Assembly: GCA_947588895.1 (NCBI GenBank)
Contig: CANQBF010000004.1
Location: forward strand, 1-45,911
From: an uncultured Bacilli bacterium
GTDB taxonomy: Bacteria; Bacillota_I; Bacilli_A; RF39; UBA660
Length of the DNA: 45,911 bases
Direction: 5' to 3'
The stretch's first letter is position 1. Each line of letters begins with the position of its first letter. A program made the position numbers and the translations under genes. A model generated the notes under the pieces. The model did no database searches and was not told where the DNA came from. It was given only the letters and a program-made list of their open reading frames with translations. Positions 33,528-33,718 of the stretch are shown in pieces.

Positions 33528-33555
33528 TTGCAATAGCATAATTTTTTTATATAAT
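33528..33555 (+). promoter_or_regulatory. promoter of the candidate small RNA
   Basis: TTGCAA (33528-33533) and TATAAT (33550-33555) are 16 bases apart, pointing at the non-coding region 33562-33718. It starts 25 bases after the DUF368 stop codon. Confidence 0.6.
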
Positions 33556-33561
33556 AATTTT

Positions 33562-33718
33562 AAGGAAGTGTGAATTTATGTTGTTGCTTTCATCTTACTT
33601 GAAAGCCTCCATCGGTAAAACCCCTTTAGAAAAATAGTTTCGGCATCTCCAGTTCAACACTTCAAGATACTATTAAATACTAAAAGATACCTTTTGTAAA
33701 GAGGTATCTTTTGTCATA
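33562..33718 (+). ncRNA. candidate structured small RNA of unknown class
   Basis: A region without a convincing gene is bounded by a promoter and a terminator and is clearly richer in G and C than its surroundings. GAAGTGTGAA (33565-33574) pairs with TTCAACACTTC (33653-33663) with one bulge, closing a domain. Inside, GCTTTCA (33586-33592) pairs with TGAAAGC (33600-33606) around a 7-nt loop. A CCCC stretch (33621-33624) is predicted single-stranded. It does not match tRNA, SRP RNA, RNase P RNA or a riboswitch that I know. A 19-codon ORF (33578-33637) with an AAGGAAG motif is inside, so a leader peptide is an alternative reading. Confidence 0.5.
33682..33712 (+). terminator. intrinsic terminator of the small RNA
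   Basis: AAAAGATACCTT (33682-33693) pairs with GAGGTATCTTTT (33701-33712), with one G-U pair and a 7-nt loop, and runs into T-rich sequence. Confidence 0.7.

Follow-up and report, generated by a model that had tools for sequence, protein, structure and literature searches.

The aapA/IsoA loci of Helicobacter pylori occur in several chromosomal copies, encode a toxic peptide of ~30 residues and have an antisense RNA on the opposite strand (PMC6733600). Their full-length mRNA is inert owing to long-distance pairing between its 5' and 3' ends, and hairpins in the leader mask the Shine-Dalgarno site (PMC6733600). In E. coli, ibs/Sib is a five-copy repeat family whose antisense RNA spans all of the coding region as well as the ribosome site (PMC4147584), and in ldr/Rdl every one of the long tandem repeats carries both a toxin and an antisense RNA (PMC4147584). 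The hok/Sok systems combine a stable mRNA, which is shut by pairing of its ends, with an antisense RNA, and have many degenerate chromosomal copies (PMC4147584, PMC6733600).

The locus described here lies in a stretch of 45,911 nucleotides from an uncultured Bacilli bacterium, which was analysed as a whole (the window). By analogy, its layout is that of a type I toxin–antitoxin locus, the closest systems being aapA/IsoA, ibs/Sib and hok/Sok. The window element itself is likely to be a copy of a multi-copy locus of this type from which the open reading frame (ORF) has been deleted, leaving the antisense half.

The window element and its paralogue

When the window's own genome (1.1 Mb, 81 contigs) was searched at the DNA level, a copy 93% identical to the window element (E 1e-56) was found on another contig, C14, together with a partial match on contig C6. 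Alignment shows that the distance from the RNA start to the terminator base is 116 bp in the window copy, compared with ~240 bp in full copies. The deletion sits between GTGAATTT and ATGTTG, and removed the 5' arm of P2, P3, P4, the 5' arm of P5 and nearly the entire peptide ORF. The features are as follows (R1 is a covariance model built from 11 full copies):

33528–33555, + strand: sigma-A type promoter, from its hexamers on inspection (−35 TTGCAA 33528–33533, 16 nt, −10 TATAAT 33550–33555) and family conservation
33564–33716, start ~33562, + strand: predicted antisense RNA (antitoxin-like), shortened copy, from C14 homology and the R1 model (70 bits)
33564–33577, + strand: 5' arm of the closing stem P1, GGAAGTGTGAATTT, from the fold and P1 covariation in 92 copies
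33576–33593, − strand: truncated peptide ORF, ATGAAAGCAACAACATAA (MKATT*), intact in the C14 paralogue (34 aa)
33577..33578: deletion junction, 123 nt net lost relative to the C14 paralogue, from pairwise alignment
33586–33606, + strand: 7-bp internal hairpin GCTTTCA/TGAAAGC, from the fold
33606–33610, − strand: GGAGG, Shine-Dalgarno-like site of the truncated ORF (CCTCC on the + strand), from the sequence
33621–33624, + strand: CCCC, complementary to the G-tract in the leader of the peptide mRNA (most full copies have CCCCC)
33651–33663, + strand: 3' arm of P1, AGTTCAACACTTC, from fold and covariation; on the − strand, the predicted start of the peptide mRNA
33672–33700, − strand: putative peptide mRNA promoter (−35 TTTACA 33695–33700, 17 nt, −10 TTTAAT 33672–33677), from the sequence and family conservation
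33681–33713, + strand: intrinsic terminator hairpin of the + RNA, 15 pairs (1 found, 0.2 expected by chance)

A first-pass annotation of this DNA had placed a promoter, a closing stem, a 7-bp hairpin and a terminator here, and all four lie at the stated positions. Taken alone, the + promoter match is no more than chance would give (the region has 19 such sites, with 19.2 expected); it gains credibility from homology, since 81 of 86 related copies keep the −10 box at the same spacing from the RNA start. The window fold is more stable than that of shuffled sequences (−40 versus −28.1 kcal/mol, z −3.1, 1/200). The 7-bp hairpin is peculiar to the window copy, full copies having the peptide start region at that place, and the − strand promoter is located inside the + terminator hairpin.

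A 19-codon + strand ORF (MLLLSSYLKASIGKTPLEK) is also present. Its conservation, which the annotation had named as evidence against a structured RNA, is not seen: its start is created at the deletion junction, and it was rejected as the conserved frame of the family. Any conserved + strand peptide was likewise rejected, as indels break the frames and the antisense frame in register has a pN/pS of 1.65. So was a riboswitch, because the RNA ends at the terminator and no gene lies behind it in register.

The element had been presented as a new small RNA resembling no known class, and the Rfam search indeed gave no family above the gathering threshold. The + strand is non-coding and has the promoter, closed domain and terminator of a predicted transcript, but it is not independent, being a deleted copy of a multi-copy peptide locus. 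The expected conservation downstream of DUF368 was not borne out: no copy was found near the DUF368 orthologues of 29 relatives. These observations make a free-standing, trans-acting small RNA, whose C-rich loop would block many ribosome-binding sites, very improbable although a promoter, a terminator and an unpaired stretch rich in C are all present. That C-rich part of the + RNA, which seems unpaired, complements AAGGAGGTGA-like ribosome sites and is accounted for by its complementarity to the leader of the peptide mRNA. The idea of a CCCC region directed against ribosome binding sites is therefore retained as regards antisense pairing to a ribosome-binding region, but not as a free seed for many mRNAs: it complements the G-tract of this leader, and the strong match is with C14 only. 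The predicted duplex between the window RNA and the C14 mRNA reaches −143 kcal/mol (−46 for shuffled sequences), and those with the other copies of the same genome range from −46 to −60 kcal/mol, near the shuffled range.

The window copy could act as an orphan antitoxin in trans only on the near-identical C14 paralogue. The chances are about even that the window copy is instead an inert, decaying duplicate, untranscribed or without effect. It has lost most of the structure, its place is not conserved in the 29 relatives, and other broken copies exist in the family (fragments at L050, L039, L042 and L074); against this, the window copy retains its closing stem, its terminator and both of its promoters intact. 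An inert remnant would concern the window copy alone and is compatible with the family-level explanation.

Copies, structure and promoters of the family

The own genome (1.1 Mb) contains at least 11–13 copies, on contigs C4 (the window), C6, C8 (two), C14, C27, C38 (two), C39 (two) and C62, plus weaker matches. A full copy is about 240 bp plus the terminator. Same-genus genomes hold further copies, some of them in tandem with a spacing of 336–377 bp. R1 has matches in 28 of 38 genus genomes, and a broader covariance model, R2, built from 92 copies, has matches in 37 of the 38, with up to 18 copies per genome. A degenerate DNA pattern of the peptide start matches 21 stretches in the genome collection, all in uncultured Bacilli metagenome assemblies from rabbit ('Lapin') and goat gut, most of which are recognisable as contigs already found; it has no match in viral contigs. 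A phage or plasmid mobile element was rejected, no match being found in phage and plasmid collections.

Several loci deserve description. L046 (2705–3670), L038 (65–727) and L063 (821–1744) are tandem arrays of two or three full copies, ~336–377 bp apart. At L044 (1403–1462) and L049 (3293–3353), the terminator end of the repeat only is found right behind a gene ending in ...WLLNK*; either a piece of the repeat has been recruited to terminate the gene, or recombination has left it behind. Surface-protein-like genes lie just upstream of the repeat, and divergent from it, at L035, L041, L042, L045, L039, L040, L050 and L051. Their promoter reads TTGACACC-G8-TATTATATAAT, and the run of eight G in its spacer would suit phase-variable expression.

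A covariance model built from homologues had been proposed as a check, and it does support a structure, although the homologues are not downstream of DUF368. Across the 92 copies, the closing stem, a second stem and long hairpins covary strongly, with 51 of 56 pairs changed on both sides and a covariation score of 0.332 (0.156 for shuffled and at most 0.075 for slid alignments). Covariation appears again in 26 matches, mostly from distant genus members outside the R2 build and including two own-genome loci (0.381 versus 0.143), and in 20 loci of other genera (0.503 versus 0.156); these two alignments were fitted to the model, so that the counts lean towards it, but the slide control does not reproduce them. 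The asymmetry between G·U and A·C (284 versus 232 cells) does not say which strand folds.

Promoter conservation was scored on 86 copies. The + promoter has the form TTG...17...TATACT/TATAAT, with the −10 box conserved as mentioned above. The invariant + strand motifs TATTAAA and TTGTAAA correspond to a − strand promoter, TTTACA-17-TTTAAT, within the + terminator hairpin; TTTACA is present in 63 of the 86 copies and the 17-nt spacer in 74. Two conserved promoters therefore face each other, and the arms of the closing stem hold one predicted transcript start each. Since the + promoter is among those kept, the predicted + RNA is antisense to the entire predicted peptide mRNA.

In the R2 scan of the order, 15 of the 33 genera sampled (the window's genus counted) have matches, those in other genera being mostly weak, and the R1 scan of the bacterial family gave one weak match, L155. 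A Shine-Dalgarno-led hydrophobic ORF on the − strand is found in 16 of 19 other-genus loci and in 13 of 452 background windows (p 3e-19); therefore, the design extends far beyond the genus. These loci are very divergent, their peptides are quite different, and a + promoter cannot be clearly recognised at the corresponding position. At L155 (G049, another genus), positions 1573–1660 contain MKKDCQILFHYIIILLLLVIIIYLLNQQ, a small hydrophobic ORF that has GGAGG in its leader, and CAGGGGG tracts are present as well. In the left flank of several divergent loci (L216–L234), a recurring TTGCATAAAATAAAAA(A)GGAACA reads on the − strand as a U-tract that follows the closing stem; in those genera it may serve to terminate the peptide mRNA.

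The opposite-strand peptide and a proposed mechanism

A − strand ORF is present in 79 of 92 copies, or 86 if GTG and TTG starts are allowed. It is preceded by a Shine–Dalgarno site and encodes a single-helix hydrophobic peptide of 28–40 residues, most of the ORFs having 32–41 (e.g., MKATTLNKFLLVIILLLLFIIILKDAVKILEIIF in the C14 copy). In each of the 86 peptides, hydropathy peaks strongly, at the level of a membrane helix (minimum 2.05); most begin positively charged, and many contain a K-D-A motif. The pN/pS ratio of the peptide is 0.35 over 128 close pairs; for codons with a single difference it is 0.30 in the peptide frame, compared with 0.46–1.65 in the other five frames. These ratios indicate that the peptide is under purifying selection.

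No Pfam or NCBIfam model passes its cut-off for the peptides, and PHROGs gives a marginal match of unknown function (E 0.034). Homology to the aapA, hok, ibs and Fst/Ldr toxin families was not found in these three libraries. The family is real, unannotated and previously unnamed; it has many copies, and its kind, type I toxin–antitoxin-like, is a known one.

Judged by its sequence, the peptide is probably a self-toxin, but a small membrane peptide can be conserved without being toxic. The locus might instead encode a family of small membrane proteins with a structured mRNA, with a housekeeping, signalling or bacteriocin-like function, the + promoter serving regulatory antisense transcription only. 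Purifying selection on a short hydrophobic peptide is no proof of toxicity, and a putative bacteriocin family, YxzE-like, is among the best weak library matches, at a non-significant E of 2.9. We nevertheless regard a non-toxic peptide as unlikely: an opposed promoter giving a full-length antisense RNA is kept in 81 of 86 copies, the mRNA is predicted to pair end to end, and many diverged tandem and broken copies are typical of type I loci (PMC4147584, PMC6733600).

The hallmarks of type I systems are found to different extents. A hydrophobic peptide ORF with a ribosome site is present in 79–86 of the 92 full copies, the window copy itself having MKATT* instead. The conserved opposed promoters (86 copies) point to an antisense gene that overlaps the mRNA and has its own promoter. 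Regarding an mRNA structure that limits translation, the end-to-end stem covaries, and occlusion of the Shine-Dalgarno site is weak.

Following the self-toxin reading, a full copy would function through two convergent promoters facing each other across about 240 bp. The − transcript would begin in one arm of the closing stem and encode the hydrophobic peptide of 28–40 residues, with its Shine-Dalgarno leader. Its 5' and 3' ends are predicted to pair (P1/P2), and the leader could fold onto the Shine-Dalgarno site; together, as in hok and aapA, these should keep the full-length mRNA poorly translated. This lock is the least supported step of the mechanism, because the predicted occlusion is barely above that of shuffled sequences (unpaired probability of the site 0.30, versus 0.36). 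The + transcript would start at the other arm, be complementary to the whole mRNA and stop at the terminator; by pairing with the mRNA it would be expected to obstruct the ribosome site and to direct the resulting duplex to RNase III. Peptide that is made would insert into, and harm, the cell's own membrane. In the window, the 123-nt net deletion took out the peptide gene, leaving the predicted antisense RNA, both promoters and the terminator.

The broadest reading is a new type I toxin–antitoxin superfamily that is family-wide in gut Bacilli, genomes of 1.1–1.3 Mb carrying as many as 18 loci. Antisense RNA and toxin mRNA would each start in an arm of a single closing stem, which they share and which co-evolves, and toxin-less copies such as that of the window would be trans-acting orphan antitoxins for a sister locus. 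Taken as a whole it is tentative, and we hold it to be rather doubtful. If true, type I toxin–antitoxin loci are densely represented in the small genomes (about 1 Mb) of a group of uncultured gut bacteria; no Rfam model matches these loci, and no Pfam or NCBIfam model does so above its cut-off. The more than 100 diverged copies with covariation would then be a natural data set on the evolution of mRNA locking and antisense pairing, and the window a case of toxin loss with the antitoxin retained.

Comparison with known systems

The likeness to aapA/IsoA lies in the multiple copies, the short peptide, the opposite-strand antisense RNA and the pairing of 5' and 3' ends, here predicted from the sequence. 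However, IsoA3 is shorter and starts inside the ORF region, whereas the + promoter of the present family lies beyond the 3' end of the mRNA and its transcript covers all of it; the peptides are also longer, with the K-D-A motif in many copies.

An end-paired mRNA, an antisense RNA and many degenerate copies are shared with hok/Sok, again as predicted features. In contrast, Sok pairs in a long leader and acts through mok, and no mok-like leader ORF was identified here. Tandem repeats carrying a peptide and an antisense RNA recall ldr/Rdl, but the latter is a two-gene repeat with another arrangement, and the present peptides pass no Pfam or NCBIfam cut-off.

Like ibs/Sib, the family is a set of repeats with an antisense RNA across the coding region and the ribosome site. 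The ibs/Sib repeat is ~140 nt long, whereas the repeat described here measures about 240 bp plus a terminator, has a covarying closing stem that joins its two ends, and reaches up to 18 copies.
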